Shown: one piece after another, positions 14,359-64,000 of the stretch | Layout of the letters: each line of letters starts with the position of its first letter | Position numbering within the stretch: position 1 is the stretch's first letter | From: an uncultured Caulobacterales bacterium | GTDB taxonomy: Bacteria; Pseudomonadota; Alphaproteobacteria; Caulobacterales; Maricaulaceae | DNA length: 64,000 bases | Assembly: GCA_937928165.1 (NCBI GenBank) | Contig: CALFVT010000002.1 | Location: 186,001 to 250,000 of the forward strand | Reading direction: 5' to 3' | Notes under the pieces: model-generated | The model's database searches: none | What the model was told of the DNA's origin: nothing | Seen by the model: only the letters and a program-made list of their open reading frames with translations | Made by a program: the position numbers and the translations under genes

Positions 14359-15102
14359 ATGGCTACACCGAAAAACACACCTGATGTTAAAAGTAAAAAG
14401 CCGATTAAAAAGCTTCCTAAGAAAAAAACATCTAAGAAAAAACTGCCAAGGCCAAAACTCACCCGGGCGCAGATTGCTGATATTTACCGTCATCTTCAAA
14501 CCTTGGACCCTGCGCCGCGAACGGAGCTTCATTACTCGAACCCCTATACGCTTGTTGTTGCAGTTGCCCTCTCGGCGCAGGCGACGGATGTGGGGGTGAA
14601 TAAAGCAACAAAGGCTTTGTTTGAGGCGGCAGATACCCCGGAAAAAATGGTGGCTTTGGGTGAAGATAAAGTCAGAGATTATGTTAAAACTATTGGGCTT
14701 TTTCGTACCAAGGCAAAAAATGTTATCGCGCTCAGCCAGATGTTAATTGATGATTACGGCTCTGTTGTACCGGATAAGCGTGAAGACTTAATCCGCCTGC
14801 CTGGTGTTGGGCGTAAAACCGCTAATGTGGTGTTAAACGAAGCTTTTGGCCAACCGACTATGGCAGTTGATACGCATATCTTTCGGGTCTCGAACCGCAC
14901 AGGCATGGCCCCGGGTAAGGATGTGCTAGAGGTGGAGCATAATTTACTCCGGGTTACGCCGGATGAATTTGCCCTTCATGCCCACCATTGGCTCATTTTA
15001 CATGGACGCTATACTTGCGTGGCGCGGACGCCAAAATGCTATAATTGTGCCATTTCGCATATTTGTAAGTTTCGGCCAAAGACTCCCGGTGTAGATGAGT
15101 AG
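14359..15102 (+). CDS. nth: Endonuclease III
   Basis: DNA glycosylase/AP lyase for oxidised pyrimidines. The first 33 residues form a Lys-rich extension (KSKKPIKKLPKKKTSKKK) that could bind DNA. After it comes the helix-hairpin-helix core: LSAQATDVGVNKATKALF, the hairpin LPGVGRKTANVVL with the catalytic Lys, and the AVDTHIFRVSNR segment with the catalytic Asp. The C-terminus carries a 4Fe-4S site of the form C-x6-C-x2-C-x5-C. An AGGG site precedes the ATG. Confidence 0.97.
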   Translation: MATPKNTPDVKSKKPIKKLPKKKTSKKKLPRPKLTRAQIADIYRHLQTLDPAPRTELHYSNPYTLVVAVALSAQATDVGVNKATKALFEAADTPEKMVALGEDKVRDYVKTIGLFRTKAKNVIALSQMLIDDYGSVVPDKREDLIRLPGVGRKTANVVLNEAFGQPTMAVDTHIFRVSNRTGMAPGKDVLEVEHNLLRVTPDEFALHAHHWLILHGRYTCVARTPKCYNCAISHICKFRPKTPGVDE

Positions 15103-15136
15103 AAGCTTTGATAGATAAAGGCGTGAATTATATAGC

Positions 15137-16051
15137 CTAAGGCTTTGGGTTTAAACGCCGCTTGACGGCTTTTGCAAGTTTTTGCGCACCTTTATTATCT
15201 GCACCTTCGCCGCCAGAATGAGGCAGGTAAAGATAAGGCTCGATAAGTTCGAGTTCAATAAGTTTTAAATTACCATCCCGCCCCCGCAAAAGATCGATAC
15301 GGGCATAAACAGGGCTATAATCTAAAACATCTAAAATTCGGCGCGCGACAGATAACTGCGCTGCGGTCGGATTATAGCTTTCCTCTGTGCCGCCGAAAAA
15401 TGATTGAATGCGGTAATCTCCAGGCCTTGGCCGTTTAATCAGAGCATGAGAAAATTGCCCTCCAAAAAACAGTAAGGAATATTCCCCCTCATCAACAACG
15501 CTTTTTTGATAAGGCTGTATAAGGGCGGCGTCTGGCGGAAGCTCGGATAGTTTTGGAAAGGGCTCGCCCTTTTTAAAACTGGCTTGCCGCCATGCCGCTG
15601 CGCCGATACGCGGTTTTATGATTAAATGATCTGTTTTAAGTTTCTTAAAGGCACGATTCACCCCAGTTTCTGTAACGCGGTCAACAGATAGGGTTGAAAT
15701 TACCGGCGCGCCCTTTTTAGCTAAATCGTCCAAATAATTCTTATCGGAATTCCACTCTATAACCTCATAACTATTGAGTAGTTTCGTGTGCTGTGCTGCT
15801 TTGGCCATAGCATTGAGGAAGGGCCTTTTTTTACCGTGAACATAATCCCACACCATAAGCGGCATTATGGCGGCGTATTCATGGGCTTTTTCTGGCGCTT
15901 CCGTCCATAGTAAAGTTTCGAATAAAAGGCCTTCTTGTGCAAAGGCGGGGCCTAATTTGTTAACTTGTTCATCAAATTCAAAGGCATCTGCGCGGCGGCC
16001 ATCAATACCGGGCATTAGATCTTGAGATATTAACATAGCTATTTTTTTCAT
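15137..16051 (-). CDS. ATP-grasp domain protein (RimK/glutathione synthase-like)
   Basis: Predicted ATP-dependent carboxylate-amine ligase of 304 residues. The N-terminal third is a preATP-grasp-like domain; the ATP-grasp core has LIIKPRIGAAAWRQASF, ALIQPYQKSVVDEGEYSL, and the metal-binding end ARIDLLRGRDGNLKLIELELIEP with paired Glu. The first residues (MKKIAMLISQDLMPG) suggest no signal peptide. The fold is related to RimK and to DcsG of D-cycloserine synthesis, but the substrate cannot be read from the sequence. It stands alone, convergent with nth and divergent from the adenosine kinase gene. Confidence 0.8.
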   Translation of the reverse strand: MKKIAMLISQDLMPGIDGRRADAFEFDEQVNKLGPAFAQEGLLFETLLWTEAPEKAHEYAAIMPLMVWDYVHGKKRPFLNAMAKAAQHTKLLNSYEVIEWNSDKNYLDDLAKKGAPVISTLSVDRVTETGVNRAFKKLKTDHLIIKPRIGAAAWRQASFKKGEPFPKLSELPPDAALIQPYQKSVVDEGEYSLLFFGGQFSHALIKRPRPGDYRIQSFFGGTEESYNPTAAQLSVARRILDVLDYSPVYARIDLLRGRDGNLKLIELELIEPYLYLPHSGGEGADNKGAQKLAKAVKRRLNPKP

Positions 16052-53047: not shown

Positions 53048-53806
53048 ATGAAAGTCCTACTAACATCTTCTATGGCTGCGATTATTATTGGCGCCGGCAT
53101 GTTGTTTGTCCCCGCCCCTGCAACAGGACAGGGCGTCAACCCAGCAAATGCGGCGCAATATAATCAAGTGTCAAAAGCGGCGAATTTATATCCAACAGAA
53201 CTCGTTGAGCTATTTACATCCCAAGGCTGCTCATCTTGTCCGCCTGCGGATAAGTTTATTGCCAGCCTCGCCGATTCGCCGTCGACTCTCGCTTTATCTT
53301 TCAATGTGACTTATTGGGATTATTTGGGCTGGAAAGACCGGTTTGGCCAAAAGGTTTTTACCAAGCGCCAGAAACAATATGCCAGATCATTAGGCATCGG
53401 CAATGTTTACACACCGCAAATGGTTGTTAACGGTGTGGCGCATAGTAACCGCTTTACCCGCAAGCAAATTATGTCAGCCTCGCTCTCTGATGACCGCCCT
53501 ATGTTTGAATTAACGCCCTCCGGCTCTGTTTTGCGCGTAAGCTCTGCAAATGATGCAGATTTGTCTGATTGTAAGCTCACCCTTGTTGCGTATAAGCCGG
53601 GTCTTCAAAAGACGCCGGTGTTGCGGGGTGAAAACCGCCGTCGAACTTTGGAAAATTATAATGTTGTTAAGGGCGTTTATGAAATCAACGCGGATACGCA
53701 ATATAGTCTTGACCGCAGTGAACATGAAGACGGCCTTGCTTACGTGCTTTTGGCCTCTGACGTCAGGACAGCTGAAATTGTATCGATGACGCAAATGCTG
53801 CCCTAA
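53048..53806 (+). CDS. DUF1223 secreted thioredoxin-fold protein
   Basis: Exported protein of 252 residues with signal peptide (MKVLLTSSMAAIIIGAGM). The thioredoxin-like CxxC is in TSQGCSSCPPADKF, and YTPQMVVNGVAHSNRF is the family's second block. Function not established; a periplasmic redox role is likely by fold. A strong terminator follows (53834-53857). Confidence 0.9.
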   Translation: MKVLLTSSMAAIIIGAGMLFVPAPATGQGVNPANAAQYNQVSKAANLYPTELVELFTSQGCSSCPPADKFIASLADSPSTLALSFNVTYWDYLGWKDRFGQKVFTKRQKQYARSLGIGNVYTPQMVVNGVAHSNRFTRKQIMSASLSDDRPMFELTPSGSVLRVSSANDADLSDCKLTLVAYKPGLQKTPVLRGENRRRTLENYNVVKGVYEINADTQYSLDRSEHEDGLAYVLLASDVRTAEIVSMTQMLP

Positions 53807-54104
53807 GCGTGAGCTTAATCGCTTTATTGATTTAATGGCCCGATAGGGCCATTTTTTATGAGCGGCGCAATTATAAACCCGCCAAGGTGGGAAGCCTGGC
53901 GGGTTATATAGGGTTCGGCCGGAGCCGGGATGGGAATAAGCGTCAACTTATGAGGGAAACCCGGGGGCTGGGGGGCTGAAAAACCGCGCCTCTCGCATCA
54001 GCTGACATTGCCTTTATGACGATGAGTTGCGGCAGGATCGGGACTGAAATGTGGCCAAAATAAGGCTTTTTCACTTATTTGCATCTTTTTTGCGATTATT
54101 TGCA
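53807..54104. other. Structured intergenic region between convergent genes
   Basis: Beyond the terminator there is a second strong hairpin (AACCCGCCA at 53876-53884 and TGGCGGGTT at 53897-53905). Then comes a GC-rich stretch with CGGCCGGAGCCG, ATAAG/CTTAT and GGGTT/AACCC pairings (53911-53975). No coding gene is seen. Either stacked terminators or a short RNA. Confidence 0.5.
53834..53857 (+). terminator. Rho-independent terminator after the DUF1223 gene
   Basis: Arms AATGGCCC and GGGCCATT around GATA, followed by a T run (52-57 of this block). Perfect 8-bp stem with T tail, 27 bp after the stop. Confidence 0.93.
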
Positions 54105-55052
54105 TTAATTTTGGCTCAATGTCTCCATATCATTATATATATCCGCGCTAAGCAATAAAAGCCGGTGGAGTTGCGGATGTAATTGTCCATAGAGCGCCGG
54201 AGGGCGTTTGGGCGCTTTAAAGGGCCGCCCGCGCAGGCTTTGATATTGCGCGTCATAAATCTGCCATGTGGTGCGGCTTTTATCTTTTAGGCTAGGAAGG
54301 CGCACATTGCGTGATGTACTAACCCCGCCGTGGAATTGATGAAAACTAGCTTCAGACATGAGCAAAATATAATCGCGCGCTTCATCAGATATGGCGCGGG
54401 TGAAAAAATCAAGATTAACAAGTCCGCCGCCGGGAATGTCAAAGGCCTCATCATAGCCGCCAAGGGACTGATAGGTGGTTTTGCGCATGAATAACACATT
54501 GCTTTCAGAAATTGGTTTTAACCACGCTCCGCCGGCTGATTTTCCAAGGCAGGAGATATCAAATAACTTATAGCCGTCTTGCGGCCAATTTATGGACTCT
54601 AATAAAGCATCTTCAGCGGTTTGATTATAACCATGGGCCATATTGTCTTGTTGGGGTTTATCGCCCAAATGCCAGCCCAATGTGGCGATAACTGGATCCT
54701 CATGAATGTTCATAAGCTTTTTTGCGTTATGTAAAAGACCCGGGCTGACCATTCTTGCCCCGTCTATCACTGGGCAGACCCAGTCTCCCATTGATAGCTC
54801 GGCTCCAAGGTTTAAGGCCTTAGCCGGAGACGGGGCTGGATGCGGAACGGGAACATAGCGGACATTATCGGGCCATGATTTAACGATATGCGGCGCAATC
54901 GGCGCAGATGAGCCGTTTTCCATCACCAATATTTCAATATCTTTGGGGTTTATCTGGGTTTGATAGGGCGGCAGAAAGCTCTGAACCGTGCGCGGGATTT
55001 CGCGGGCCATATTATATGAGATGATAATAATACTGATTAAGGGCGATGTCAT
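54105..55052 (-). CDS. GT2 family glycosyltransferase
   Basis: Family 2 glycosyltransferase of 315 residues. The N-terminal nucleotide-binding strand is ISIIIISYNMAREIPRTVQSF; the acidic region is EILVMENGSSA and GDWVCPVIDGARMVSPGLL. The middle has FDIPGGGLVNLDFFTRA, the usual acceptor-site segment. Divergent from the large sulfotransferase gene by about 110 bp. Donor and acceptor unknown; cell-surface glycan likely. Confidence 0.85.
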   Translation of the reverse strand: MTSPLISIIIISYNMAREIPRTVQSFLPPYQTQINPKDIEILVMENGSSAPIAPHIVKSWPDNVRYVPVPHPAPSPAKALNLGAELSMGDWVCPVIDGARMVSPGLLHNAKKLMNIHEDPVIATLGWHLGDKPQQDNMAHGYNQTAEDALLESINWPQDGYKLFDISCLGKSAGGAWLKPISESNVLFMRKTTYQSLGGYDEAFDIPGGGLVNLDFFTRAISDEARDYILLMSEASFHQFHGGVSTSRNVRLPSLKDKSRTTWQIYDAQYQSLRGRPFKAPKRPPALYGQLHPQLHRLLLLSADIYNDMETLSQN

Positions 55053-55161
55053 AGCAATAAGGCTTTGTTATTCACGGGGATATTATGCAATAGGCGGTGA
55101 CAGTAAAGAAAAATATGCCAACATGTCTACACATTCACCGCGTAATGCTCTAAGGGGTGAG

Positions 55162-57606
55162 ATGGATGCAGCTCTGTTTAAGCAGCGGAATTTTATGACG
55201 ACAAATAAAAAAGCGGTCACGACAAAGCGCCAAGGCAAAACAAAGCCTGAAGCCTTATTTATATTGGGCATGCACCGCGCTGGAACTTCGGCCCTCACCC
55301 GCTGTATGAGCCTTATGGGCTATCAACTCCCTAAAACACTTATGGGGGCGAATACAAGCAATCAAAAAGGCCATTGGGAATCCACGCGGCTTGCCCGGCT
55401 TAACGACCGTATTTTAAGCTATTTTGGGGCGGACTGGCAAAGCTGGCTGCCGCTGGATATGTCCCGCCTGCCGGCTGAGACAGGGTCACAATTCATCAAT
55501 GAAATTATTGCTGTGCTGGGCGGAGAATATGATGACGGCCAATCAATCGTTATAAAGGACCCGCGTATTTCGCGGCTTTTACCGCTTTATGAACGCGCCA
55601 CCCAAAAAGCAGGTTATGAAGCTAAATTTATCCTTGCAAGCCGTAATCCCCTAGAAGTCGCCAGCTCCCTCAACGCGCGTAATGATATGGGCGCAACCGA
55701 GAGCCAAATGCTCTGGCTGCGTTATAATCTGGACGCAGAAATTGCCACGCGCAAGGCGGCGCGGGCCTTTATTGATTTTGGGTTTTTATTAAGCGCCCCC
55801 CATGATTATTTGGCGGCTGCGATTAAATTTGCCAAACTCTCTCCGCCTTATGCTTTAAGTGATGTGCGCCGCTCTATTGATAATTTTCTGGATAAGACGC
55901 ACCGCCATGATAGCCGCTCCCTTGAGGAAGTTATGCTCGATCATGAACATAGAGACTGGAGCGGTCAGGCCTATCAGGCATGGTTGGTTTTATGTGAAAA
56001 CCCCGCGTCTAAGCCGTCTTTAAAGACGTTTGATAAAATTCGTAGTGAATTTAATGTGGCCGCCCCGCAGCTTTTGCGGCAATTAACGGCTTTTCGCACA
56101 GATGCGGATGAAACCGCGCGCCTGCACCGTAAAAGCCATGATAAGATGAGCTCTGATATTGCGGCGCTGCGGGAGAATATTTCTGATCTTAAAGCGTCCG
56201 TGCAGAAAAAAGACGCCGAGTTTGCTGCCATATCGCGCGAAAACCGGCAGCAGCAAAAGGAGCTTAATAAAGCTTTTGAGGACATTCAAATCCTTAAGCA
56301 GCAGTTAAGCGATCGTTCAGATGTAAAAAAGGCGCTGAAGGAGACAAGTTTAAAATTAAGCGGACTTGCCGCAGAGGCGAAGACTTTACGCTCTGAAAAG
56401 CGGCAGCTTAACCGCGAGAAATGGGCCCTGCAAGACCGCGCCCGTTTTGCTAGCGATATGGTGAGCGCCCTACAGCAATCCACATCTTGGAAAGTAACGA
56501 AGCCGTTAAGATTTGTAAAACGCCTTATAAATCCGCAAGCGGTGTCAATGACGCCGTCCCGGCACTCACCTACGCCTCCCCCCTCAGGACTTGAACGTCA
56601 AGATGGCTCCTCGCCGGAACATGTCTTAAGCCCGCCGCAGGCCCTTGATATAAAGCCCTCAAAACCTGTCACCCCAAACCAGATGGCAAAAGTTGAATCC
56701 AGCGACCTGTTTGATCCGGTATTTTATGTCAGTAGCTATCCGGATGTGCAATCCCAAGACCTAGAGCCTTTGGCGCATTATCTGGCCATAGGTTGGCAGA
56801 AGGGTTATAACCCGAGTGAAAAATTTAATACGGACGCCTATTTGGCCGCCTATCCTGAGCTTAAGGCGAAGGGGGATAATCCGCTGCTACATTATCTAAC
56901 GTCTAATCATGGCCAAAAAATCAAAGCCTCTGACCGCAAAGCTGTTGGCCGCATTGCCGTCTTTATGGCCGTCGCCGGAGATTATGATAGTATTAAAGAC
57001 CCAGAGATTGTTTCGGATAAGGCCGATTATTTTATTTTCACAGACCAAGAATTACCGCCAAACTCCATTTGGCAAAAACGTGATTTTGAATATTTTGATG
57101 CGGACCCAACCCGTATGGCTCGCTTTATAAAAACCCATCCACATCTTTATTTTGGTGATTATGATTGGGCCCTGTGGATGGATGCCAATCTTCAAATAAA
57201 TGTCCCCCCAGAGGATATAATCGCCCCCTTTGCCGCAACCCATGTTTTGGCTACATGGACACACCCTCTGCGTCGTTGTATTTTTGATGAAGCAAAAGAA
57301 TGTGAAAAGCGCAGTAAAGATGACGGGCAGGTTATGAGCGCGCAAATGGAGCGTTATAAATCGGCCGGATTTACGGCAGGGGCCGGCCTGTTTGAAACCA
57401 GCGTCATGGCGAGTAAAATGAATGAGCCGTCGATTACGGCAGTGATGAATAAATGGTGGGCCGAGATTGAACAAGGTAGCCGCCGCGATCAATTATCACT
57501 CCCCTTTGCTTTGCGCGGTTTGAATATAGAGGTCGCAGCTCTCGCGCCCAAAGGCATTTGCATGCGCTCTGACCCGCGGTTTAATTATTACCGCCACCAG
57601 AAATAG
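55162..57606 (+). CDS. Multidomain sulfotransferase / coiled coil / DUF616 glycosyltransferase-like protein
   Basis: Protein of 814 residues from the ATG at 55162 (AAGGGG upstream); longer readings overlap the divergent GT gene. Four parts: a sulfotransferase domain (about 28-215) with the PAPS loop FILGMHRAGTSALTR and VIKDPRISRLLPLY; a coiled coil (about 322-430) ending in STSWKVTKPLRFVKRL; a repeat region (about 515-582, DPVFYVSSYPDVQS, HYLAIGWQKGYNPS, FNTDAYLAAYPEL) common beside glycosyltransferases; and a DUF616 domain (about 596-810) with WALWMDANL as the acidic site. This suggests one polypeptide that both sulfates and glycosylates a surface polymer; activity is inferred. No signal peptide is visible. 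Confidence 0.85.
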   Translation: MDAALFKQRNFMTTNKKAVTTKRQGKTKPEALFILGMHRAGTSALTRCMSLMGYQLPKTLMGANTSNQKGHWESTRLARLNDRILSYFGADWQSWLPLDMSRLPAETGSQFINEIIAVLGGEYDDGQSIVIKDPRISRLLPLYERATQKAGYEAKFILASRNPLEVASSLNARNDMGATESQMLWLRYNLDAEIATRKAARAFIDFGFLLSAPHDYLAAAIKFAKLSPPYALSDVRRSIDNFLDKTHRHDSRSLEEVMLDHEHRDWSGQAYQAWLVLCENPASKPSLKTFDKIRSEFNVAAPQLLRQLTAFRTDADETARLHRKSHDKMSSDIAALRENISDLKASVQKKDAEFAAISRENRQQQKELNKAFEDIQILKQQLSDRSDVKKALKETSLKLSGLAAEAKTLRSEKRQLNREKWALQDRARFASDMVSALQQSTSWKVTKPLRFVKRLINPQAVSMTPSRHSPTPPPSGLERQDGSSPEHVLSPPQALDIKPSKPVTPNQMAKVESSDLFDPVFYVSSYPDVQSQDLEPLAHYLAIGWQKGYNPSEKFNTDAYLAAYPELKAKGDNPLLHYLTSNHGQKIKASDRKAVGRIAVFMAVAGDYDSIKDPEIVSDKADYFIFTDQELPPNSIWQKRDFEYFDADPTRMARFIKTHPHLYFGDYDWALWMDANLQINVPPEDIIAPFAATHVLATWTHPLRRCIFDEAKECEKRSKDDGQVMSAQMERYKSAGFTAGAGLFETSVMASKMNEPSITAVMNKWWAEIEQGSRRDQLSLPFALRGLNIEVAALAPKGICMRSDPRFNYYRHQK

Positions 57607-57613
57607 GCCCCTT

Positions 57614-58474
57614 ATGCCGGTAACAGTTGATGTCATTATTTGTATTCATAATGCGCTGGATGATGTGAAAGCCTGTGTTGAATCCGTGCTGCGAAGTGAT
57701 TTTAAATCCGGAGAGTTTAAGTTGATTCTCGTGGATGACGGCTCTGATACGGCGGCTGCGGATTATGTGAAAGATATGGCGGCGCGTCATGAAACTATTA
57801 CGGCGATTCGGCGCGGTAAGGCCGGCGGTTATACGATTGCAGCCAATACAGGGCTGCGGGCGTCACAAGCTGATTTTTGCGCCTTGCTTAATTCTGATAC
57901 GATTGTTCCAAAAACATGGCTTGATAAATTCACGGCAATTTTTGATGTAAAGCCAGATGTCGGTATCATTGGCCCGCTCTCAAATGCGGCGAGCTGGCAA
58001 TCGGTTCCGGATTTATCCGCCCCCGAAGGGGGCTGGGCAGTGAATAGCTTGCCCGAAGGCTGGAGCGTTGATGACATGGACGCCGCCGTTGAACGCGCCG
58101 CGCAAGGCATAGCCGTCCTGCCGCGCGTGCCTTTGCTTAATGGGTTTTGCTATATGATCCGCCGCTCTATTTTAGATGTGGTCGGCCTTATGGATGAGGC
58201 GGGCTTTCCGCGCGGCTTTGGGGAAGAAGATGATTTTTGCCTGCGCACAGCGGTGGCGGGTTTTGGTATTATGATCGCGCTTAATACTTATGTGTATCAT
58301 GCTAAATCAAAAAGCTATGGCTCTAAGGCCCGTAATAGCCTGAGCCAGAAGGGCCAAGTCATGCTTAAAAAGAAACATGGCGAAATACGCTTGGCCCGTG
58401 CCGTGGCCTCTATGCGTTTTAACCCTTATCTCGCAGATATGCGCATGGGCGTTGCGGCGCTTATGCCCCAATAG
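57614..58474 (+). CDS. GT2 family glycosyltransferase
   Basis: Family 2 glycosyltransferase of 286 residues, 8 bp after the sulfotransferase-DUF616 gene. Strand 1 is DVIICIHNALDDVKACVESV; the donor loop LILVDDGSDTAAADYV and LLNSDTIVPKTWLDKF (DxD-type Asp) are seen. A further acidic block GFGEEDDFCLRTAVAGF matches the acceptor-side motif of the GT2 group. It probably works with its neighbour on the same polysaccharide. Confidence 0.92.
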   Translation: MPVTVDVIICIHNALDDVKACVESVLRSDFKSGEFKLILVDDGSDTAAADYVKDMAARHETITAIRRGKAGGYTIAANTGLRASQADFCALLNSDTIVPKTWLDKFTAIFDVKPDVGIIGPLSNAASWQSVPDLSAPEGGWAVNSLPEGWSVDDMDAAVERAAQGIAVLPRVPLLNGFCYMIRRSILDVVGLMDEAGFPRGFGEEDDFCLRTAVAGFGIMIALNTYVYHAKSKSYGSKARNSLSQKGQVMLKKKHGEIRLARAVASMRFNPYLADMRMGVAALMPQ

Positions 58475-58513
58475 GCCTTTACCTTTGCGGGTGATGAGGG
58501 ATAGAGTTTAAAT

Positions 58514-58864
58514 ATGAACAGCTCCGTTATTTCGCTCCATAGCCGCAAACGATCCAATACCCCGTCTCAGACCGCCTTTAACCGCCAAGAGCTTAATCTT
58601 ATTTTGTCGATTTATGGGCAAATGGTCGCCAAAGGTGAGTGGAAAGATTACGCTATTGACTTTCTCAAAGATAAAGCCGTGTTTTCCGTCTTTAGGCGCG
58701 CCACAGAACATCCACTTTACCGGATTGAAAAAACGCCGGCCCTGCGGCAAAAACAAGGGCAATTTGCGGTGATTGCACCAGGCGGGCTTATTTTAAAACG
58801 CGGCCATGACCTTAAAACCGTGCTTAAAATATTTGACCGACTTCGGTTTAAAGTCGAGCGATAA
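58514..58864 (+). CDS. DUF2794 family protein
   Basis: Small protein of 116 residues with the DUF2794 signatures FNRQELNLILSIYGQMVAKG, WKDYAIDFLKDKAVFSVFRR and APGGLILKRGHDLKTVLKIF. The family is restricted to alphaproteobacteria and has no known function. It stands 40 bp after the glycosyltransferase gene, in the same direction. Confidence 0.92.
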   Translation: MNSSVISLHSRKRSNTPSQTAFNRQELNLILSIYGQMVAKGEWKDYAIDFLKDKAVFSVFRRATEHPLYRIEKTPALRQKQGQFAVIAPGGLILKRGHDLKTVLKIFDRLRFKVER

Positions 58865-63523: not shown

Positions 63524-63615
63524 ATAAGGCGCTATAAATAGGCCCAGTAACTCTGCTCTAGCTCTGTGAAAGGATGCGACATGATTTCCCCGCCAAAACC
63601 ATCCATAATCTTGTG

Positions 63616-64000
63616 ATGCGAACAGCGCCTAAAAATTCCTGTCCCAGCTTAAGCGTTATTATCCCGGTTTTTCGCGATGATACGGCTTTGGCAGATTTGC
63701 TCTCCCGCCTTGGTACATTCGGGATTGAGCGGATTTATGTTGTTGACGGTGAAGGCCGTCTATCGCCGCCGCAAAATATCTTGCGGCTTTTAAGCGAGTA
63801 CCCCTGCGCCCATTGGAGCCAAGCGCCGCGTGGGCGCGGCCCGCAGATTGCGCATGGCATTGGGCAAGCCTTAGAACATGGATGTGAAACCCTTTGGGTG
63901 CTCCACGCAGATGCCGTGCCGCATGCTTTTGCCCCCATAGAAATCATGCGAGTTTTGGCGCGCCCCACAACGGCTTTGGGCATGTTCCGGCTTAGCTTTG
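63616..64000 (+). CDS. TIGR04283-type glycosyltransferase (5' part; cut by window end)
   Basis: Partial gene read from the ATG at 63616. 128 residues visible: LSVIIPVFRDDTALADLLSRL, then IYVVDGEG, and PRGRGPQIAHGIGQALEHG followed by LWVLHADAVP, which matches the RGRxxQxNxG...LHxDxxP signature of the TIGR04283 GT2 group, often in arsenosugar or related loci. The end is outside the window. Substrate unknown. Confidence 0.85.
   Translation, partial: MRTAPKNSCPSLSVIIPVFRDDTALADLLSRLGTFGIERIYVVDGEGRLSPPQNILRLLSEYPCAHWSQAPRGRGPQIAHGIGQALEHGCETLWVLHADAVPHAFAPIEIMRVLARPTTALGMFRLSF

Follow-up and report, generated by a model that had tools for sequence, protein, structure and literature searches.

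What task falls to a protein in which a sulfotransferase head, a coiled coil, a repeat region and a glycosyltransferase-like DUF616 domain follow one another on one chain? The question is raised by a gene at 55162..57606 (+ strand) of the window, which is the whole 64-kb stretch of DNA analysed here.

Gene and protein architecture

The fusion gene is an uninterrupted frame encoding 814 aa from the ATG at 55162, and the layout that an earlier note had read in it, namely sulfotransferase (ST), coiled coil, STSWK segment, HYL repeats and DUF616, was confirmed. The same frame is open further 5' to a GTG at 54988 (872 aa); the ATG is preferred because AAGGGGTGAG directly precedes it, as read by eye. 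An AlphaFold model of the protein built from three sequences has a mean pLDDT of 53.6, with values of about 70-90 over most of the ST and below 50 from residue 439 onward. A chance frame or a mis-called fusion was considered and rejected, because L046/L098 has the full order again, in a protein 37% identical from end to end.

The ST domain covers residues 30-298 (55249..56055, + strand), as delimited by our own HMM, by the invariant columns of 35 sequences and by the fold of tyrosylprotein sulfotransferase (TPST). Its motifs are the loop GMHRAGTSAL, GHWE, KDPR and R161-x7-S169. Pfam Sulfotransfer_3 stays below threshold, with E 0.34 in the whole protein and 0.011 for the domain alone (16.5 bits against a cut-off of 27); some homologues pass this cut-off, e.g. 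L046 with 28.0 bits and L044 with 36.9 bits. The assignment is made because 34 homologous domains share the invariant loop and the predicted structure matches TPST1. In the alignment of 35 domains (the window and 34 homologues), H38, R39, G41, S43, G53, N67, G70, E73, W92, K132, P134, R135, R161, P163, S169, L170, R173 and W185 are invariant in all 35. The H38/R39/G41/S43 loop is the 5' loop, and R161-x7-S169 the 3'-phosphate site, of PAPS sulfotransferases. The predicted structure superimposes on TPST1 with Z 16.2 over 213 residues (rmsd 3.6); model residues 28-276 give Z 15-16 and rmsd of about 3.6-3.8 against TPST1/2, and the Foldseek match of the ST model has E 9e-5. By its sequence and modelled fold the N-terminal domain is a PAPS-type sulfotransferase, sulfate transfer itself being predicted. 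An APS kinase gene is present in the genome to which the window belongs, so PAPS can probably be made.

The coiled coil follows at residues about 299-439 (56056..56478, + strand). It is marked by a Pfam GAS coiled-coil match (residues 332-425, E 5.5e-8), by long helices in the AlphaFold model (residues 284-380 and 386-441) and by a heptad score of z = 5.7 against shuffles. The coiled coil proposed earlier thus stands, at a length of about 140 residues instead of the 110 given for it. The rod ends in the STSWKVTKPLRFVKRLI segment, residues 440-456 (56479..56529, + strand), a putative amphipathic membrane-surface helix recognised from the motif in plasmid STs; it is conserved and its hydrophobic moment is 0.90, a figure without a control. 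In 5/5 examined plasmid STs an STSW(R/K)-type motif lies near the C-terminus; among the 34 chromosomal ST proteins a pattern search detected it in 10 and gave no match in the remaining 24. Sixteen proteins have 140-423 residues between ST and motif, and heptad z ranges from 0.5 to 7.4 across ST proteins, being weak in some (0.5, 1.5, 2.0).

Two HYL repeats, found with our own HMM, occupy residues about 516-580 (56707..56901, + strand), a segment that matched no Pfam family at E 1. The repeat unit is of about 38 residues with the pattern F-D-x2-Y-Y-L ... P-L-x-H-Y-L-x2-G-W, and 98 such stretches were aligned from the loci collected; the segments scanned gave no Pfam family. Plasmid proteins with HYL repeats are annotated as GT2, GT61, GH99-like, M10 peptidase or methyltransferase. 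Two peptide patterns retrieved no viral relatives of the HYL-DUF616 part.

The C-terminal domain, residues 597-812 (56950..57597, + strand), is identified by our own HMM and by PF04765 (formerly DUF616, now TOD1_MUCI70) as DUF616 and glycosyltransferase-like. The Pfam match covers residues 648-788 at E 5.4e-13 and lies above the cut-off (49.4 bits against 21.4), which removes one of the two grounds on which the earlier note would have been abandoned; on the C-terminal part alone E is 1.4e-14. The 'WMDA' site is W672-M-D674-A-N. Ten residues are invariant among 9 alphaproteobacterial copies (A1 numbering): D45, W54, K74, D91, H118, R121, E127, L160, E162 and D193. An AlphaFold2 model of DUF616 from two sequences reached pLDDT 35, too poor for a reading of the fold, and the DUF616 part had no PDB sequence match at E 1. 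The plant member MUCI70 (= RGGAT1, Arabidopsis) is reported in an excerpt of PMC10576798 as a rhamnogalacturonan galacturonosyltransferase, and for this reason a uronic acid is guessed, by analogy, as the donor of DUF616. No description of the sugar specificity of bacterial DUF616 was found in the open-licence literature.

Flanking genes and insertion site

Two GT2 glycosyltransferase genes adjoin the fusion gene: GT2up (54105..55052, - strand, 315 aa, PF00535 E 4.8e-9), which is divergent from it, and GT2dn (57614..58474, + strand, 286 aa, PF00535 E 2.5e-19), whose ATG lies 8 bp past its stop. Further out, the three genes are bordered by DUF1223 and an AI-2E-type transporter at one end and by DUF2794 at the other. 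Across the frames of the window no other glycan or polysaccharide locus was seen by eye, apart from the frame at 63574. This glycosyltransferase-2-like frame (63574-64000, by eye) is truncated where the window ends.

DUF1223 homologues are present in 26/31 genomes, and besides the window's own place nine were taken as short loci (L158-L166). DUF1223 and DUF2794 lie about 290-390 bp apart in four of the nine (L158, L161, L162, L164) against 4.7 kb in the window; the remaining five, with flanks of at most 1.5 kb, gave no DUF2794 match. Because the two genes are this close in four relatives, the three-gene cassette is a 4.4-kb islet, and the site that it occupies (window 53806-58514) is empty in those four. 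Its G+C content does not stand out.

Homologues of GT2dn keep company with DUF616: they adjoin it in the window, G080 (52.7%), G251 (42%) and G202 (33%), and are fused with it in G172 (44%) and at two places of G755 (44%, 27%), in total 7 of the 20 PF04765 places from the searches of order and class. Two further places (L045, L115) have weaker matches nearby, and the other 11 of the 20 had none within the stretches searched. On a Hoeflea plasmid HYL, DUF616 and GT2dn form one CDS; cysD and cysN follow some 4.5 kb downstream of it, past three transposase genes. GT2up homologues are found near STs in G344 (L084, 59%), G080 (L046, 41%) and G036 (L019, 41%). The co-occurrence of the flanking GT2 genes, which the earlier note wished to see checked, is supported, for GT2dn with DUF616 and for GT2up with ST.

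Recurrence of the fusion and split homologues

The same domain order was found in one other alphaproteobacterial genome, a Parvularculaceae MAG (G080:C17 = JANQSJ010000010.1), so that the homologues are not split everywhere, although splits are commoner. Its protein of 799 aa has ST, HYL and DUF616 in the same order and is 37% identical to the window protein over the full length. Directly after it comes the GT2dn homologue, and two frames past that a 986-aa protein with the GT2up homologue at its end; an opposite-strand frame lies between these two. By eye, this cassette (L046:17218-19371) is a few genes from flgI- and flgJ-like frames, and two further sulfotransferase-like frames (1436-2386 and 14479-15216) are near it in L046. 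In a scan of contigs with peptide patterns it was the only fused case, next to one ST-only case; the scan used two narrow patterns, so the number of fusions is not bounded by it.

PF04765 occurs in 7/398 genomes of the order (9 places) and in 11/385 genomes of the class (12 places, the window's own included and one below the family cut-off), 20 places in total over both searches. ST is in the same frame at two of these (window, G080), in a neighbouring gene at three (G080:C2, G044, G172), and absent at 15, of which 11 were seen over 10-20 kb and 4 over about 3.5 kb. Four of the seven PF04765-positive order genomes have ST, compared with 73/391 of the others (p 0.029); the three order searches gave equal genome numbers and the draw was taken as identical. 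Within the family, 25/137 genomes matched at E 1e-20, and the genome of the window alone matched past model position 466 of 835, into the HYL-DUF616 half.

Among plasmids 122 records matched. Coverage reached 80% or more of the query in two, both from Cereibacter and both as two adjacent genes. Five Rhodobacterales plasmid STs, picked from the top of the match list, were examined: all end 8-11 residues past the motif, HYL-containing glycosyltransferase genes adjoin four of them, and three lie in a locus with an ABC permease, an ABC ATPase and a 'sugar transporter'. In Cereibacter azotoformans (NZ_CP090023.1) the ST gene comes directly after an HYL-RgpF-GT2-DUF616 gene. Plasmid pA of Cereibacter sphaeroides 2.4.1 also carries a stand-alone ST (WP_011836244.1). 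Since the plasmid STs end just past the motif and HYL genes adjoin them, the fusions look as if the two genes had been united just there. In the tree the window DUF616 is sister to the Parvularculaceae copy (support 99/96) and the ST halves of both fall within an unresolved open fork of nine rows; one fusion event or two are therefore both possible.

The wider ST family

ST was found in 77/398 genomes of the order. Chromosomal domains above 150 bits number 34, L091 being left out of the alignment and motif counts. Many of the 34 head large proteins with GT2, GT4, WbsX or RgpF, one heads a protein with an alginate-lyase module, and others stand alone. ST heads joined or adjacent to varied glycosyltransferases are thus common in the order, and what had been proposed as a small undescribed glycan-tailoring system is not a separate one: the ST-DUF616 fusion is a rare variant (2/20 PF04765 places) of a common architecture. 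No described function for this ST-headed architecture was found in the open-licence literature.

Several members were observed in other settings. A protein of 2,775 residues (L044:112-8439) has an ST head, HYL repeats, GT2, GT4 and a C-terminal alginate lyase domain. L047 and L030, from two genera of family f5, carry HYL, DUF616, GT8 and RgpF in one protein, directly after an ST-headed gene. In the genome of the window a small sulfotransferase (L131:9505-10224, C2 about 123.7 kb) has gspF-like and further gsp-like frames beside it, by eye; in G344 (L084:3051-4692) a small ST is likewise beside gsp-like frames, with the GT2up homologue between, and these two STs are of 233-239 aa. In G036 an ST of 244 aa is followed by the GT2up homologue.

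Exporter genes

Wzm/Wzt-like proteins are present in 24/34 ST loci and in 0/20 control stretches (Fisher p 9.7e-8). They were counted with phmmer at E 1e-10, a threshold that lets in other ABC ATPases too and was the same for the controls; the queries came from L084, which thus counts itself, and leaving it out gives p 2.2e-7. The ST loci span 4-20 kb and the controls are 20-kb stretches of ST-positive genomes. L091 (G313), with an ST frame of 312 bits and no Wzm/Wzt in its 20 kb, is counted among the 34, and the fused Parvularculaceae cassette is one of the ten loci that have no Wzm/Wzt-like protein. No exporter was seen in the 64-kb window; the genome has two Wzm/Wzt pairs on the contig of the cassette, more than 100 kb away from it. 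The earlier proposal that the protein sulfates and glycosylates an exported polymer is plausible.

Proposed function

It is likely that the ST sulfates the glycan that its partner modules build, and we give an even chance to the fuller reading that this is a membrane-associated enzyme which sulfates a glycan made by its own DUF616 and the adjacent GT2, the cap ending growth. A lipid-linked glycan at the cytoplasmic side of the inner membrane would be extended by the DUF616 module and GT2dn, perhaps with GT2up. The STSWKVTKPLRFVKRLI segment would rest on this membrane, while the coiled coil, about 20 nm long, would keep the N-terminal PAPS-dependent sulfotransferase off it; the sulfotransferase may then act on the far part of the same chain. 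The sulfate would most likely be a cap that stops growth once the chain is long enough to reach the ST, a role modelled on the kinase, methyltransferase and Kdo-transferase heads of WbdD/WbbB. Capping at a measured chain length is possible, and what speaks most against it is the missing C-terminal carbohydrate-binding domain of Wzt (Wzt_C), which had 0 matches in the genome of the window, a 96% complete assembly. Further points against the fuller reading are the distance of the exporters from the cassette, the detection of the motif in only 10 of the chromosomal STs, the low heptad scores of some of them and the absence of a link between Wzt_C and ST across the order. In its favour are the ST fold with its invariant sites, the recurring domain order, the split plasmid genes, the variable gap from ST to motif and the Wzm/Wzt-like proteins of 24/34 ST loci.

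Alternatively, the ST may decorate repeat units inside the polymer while the coiled coil oligomerises or tethers the enzyme and no length is measured, a tenable reading that we judge somewhat improbable. It is favoured by the finding that ST and the cap-reading Wzt_C do not track together: over the 398 order genomes Wzt_C is in 13/77 with ST and 62/321 others (p 0.75), and only 5 of the 13 genomes having both show them at a distance of about 23 kb or less. Further sulfotransferases in the same ST loci (L046, by eye; L155, as annotated) point the same way. However, the order of head, rod, membrane helix and polymerase is that of published terminators, and the gap from ST to motif varies widely in length, both of which count against decoration within the chain.

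The acceptor could also be non-polymeric, for instance a glycolipid or a protein that is secreted or displayed on the surface, and not an exported polysaccharide; this is quite unlikely. The window shows no polysaccharide locus by eye, the Parvularculaceae cassette is near the flgI- and flgJ-like frames, and GT2up homologues stand beside the small STs of G344 and G036, with gsp-like genes adjoining in G344, all of which would suit such an acceptor. Against these stand the Wzm/Wzt-like proteins of 24/34 ST loci and the ABC permease, ABC ATPase and 'sugar transporter' in the loci of three of five plasmid relatives. That chance shuffling of modules in a recent islet produced the fusion, with halves that have different acceptors or are inactive, is highly improbable. 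For it speak the 4.4-kb insertion, with its site empty in four relatives, and the lack of a match past the ST-coiled-coil half in the other 136 family genomes. Against it, this fusion also occurs in another family, at 37% identity and with the same GT2s beside it, and both the ST residues (loop, K132/R135, R161/S169) and the DUF616 invariants are intact.

The broadest form of the capping reading is rather doubtful. It holds that ST-coiled-coil proteins are widespread undescribed chain terminators, that a ruler-placed sulfate cap sets the length of ABC-exported glycans in Alphaproteobacteria, and that the window protein is a compact version with terminator, ruler and DUF616 polymerase module in one polypeptide. 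If true, bacteria would end and measure surface glycans by sulfation as well as by phosphorylation, methylation and Kdo addition, a domain present in about a fifth of the sampled order genomes would gain a testable function, and bacterial DUF616 would be linked with sulfated glycans and with a partner GT2. Under the modest reading alone the gene is still a clear case of module fusion in glycan assembly. The parts and the general layout are already known; searches of the open-licence literature gave no description of a sulfotransferase head in this layout or of the ST-DUF616 fusion. No paper on a sulfotransferase chain terminator was found there either, although absence is weak evidence in that literature, and the word sulfotransferase does not occur in PMC11231755. 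Group 3 capsule clusters of E. coli contain coiled-coil methyltransferase genes and a putative sulfotransferase, KfiB, according to an excerpt of PMC13171606.

Comparison with known systems

TPST1/2 and the sulfotransferase domain of a cyanobacterial olefin synthase (PDB 5wri, 3ap3, 4gox) have the same fold as the window ST (Z 14-16) and a sequence of the same PAPS-loop type, with 12-16% identity; the acceptor of the window ST is presumably a glycan, whereas that of TPST1/2 is tyrosine. TOD1/MUCI70 match PF04765, as the window protein does above the cut-off. They are plant proteins, whereas the window DUF616 is bacterial and fused to ST and repeats, and other bacterial copies are, unlike TOD1/MUCI70, fused to GT2, GT8 or RgpF. 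The Rhodobacterales plasmid genes annotated 'sulfotransferase family protein' have ST, coiled coil and motif in common with the window protein; they form two separate genes with their partners where the window has one, and three of five lie in exporter-containing loci, in contrast to the window cassette, which has no adjacent exporter.

The terminators WbdD (Escherichia coli O9a / Klebsiella O3) and WbbB (Klebsiella O12) also belong with the closest known systems. In the excerpts of PMC11231755, the coiled-coil ruler of published terminators bears the catalytic head at its far end, an amphipathic helix lies at the membrane, the polymerase is fused or separate, and the systems of these terminators have a Wzt carbohydrate-binding domain that reads the caps; the head-ruler-helix layout of WbdD is also given in an excerpt of PMC3482155. 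The window protein likewise has an N-terminal catalytic head, an extended coiled coil and a candidate amphipathic segment. The polymerase modules are C-terminal in WbbB and a separate protein in WbdD; in the window DUF616 is fused and GT2dn adjacent, their role as polymerase being putative. Wzm/Wzt-like genes accompany WbdD/WbbB as they do the window protein's relatives in 24/34 loci, yet, unlike the WbdD/WbbB systems, the genome of the window has no ABC exporter with a Wzt carbohydrate-binding domain and its exporters are unlinked to the cassette. The likeness is one of layout, and membership of the terminator class is not claimed. The heads also differ in kind, being a kinase, methyltransferase or Kdo transferase in WbdD/WbbB and a PAPS-type sulfotransferase, as predicted, in the window protein.
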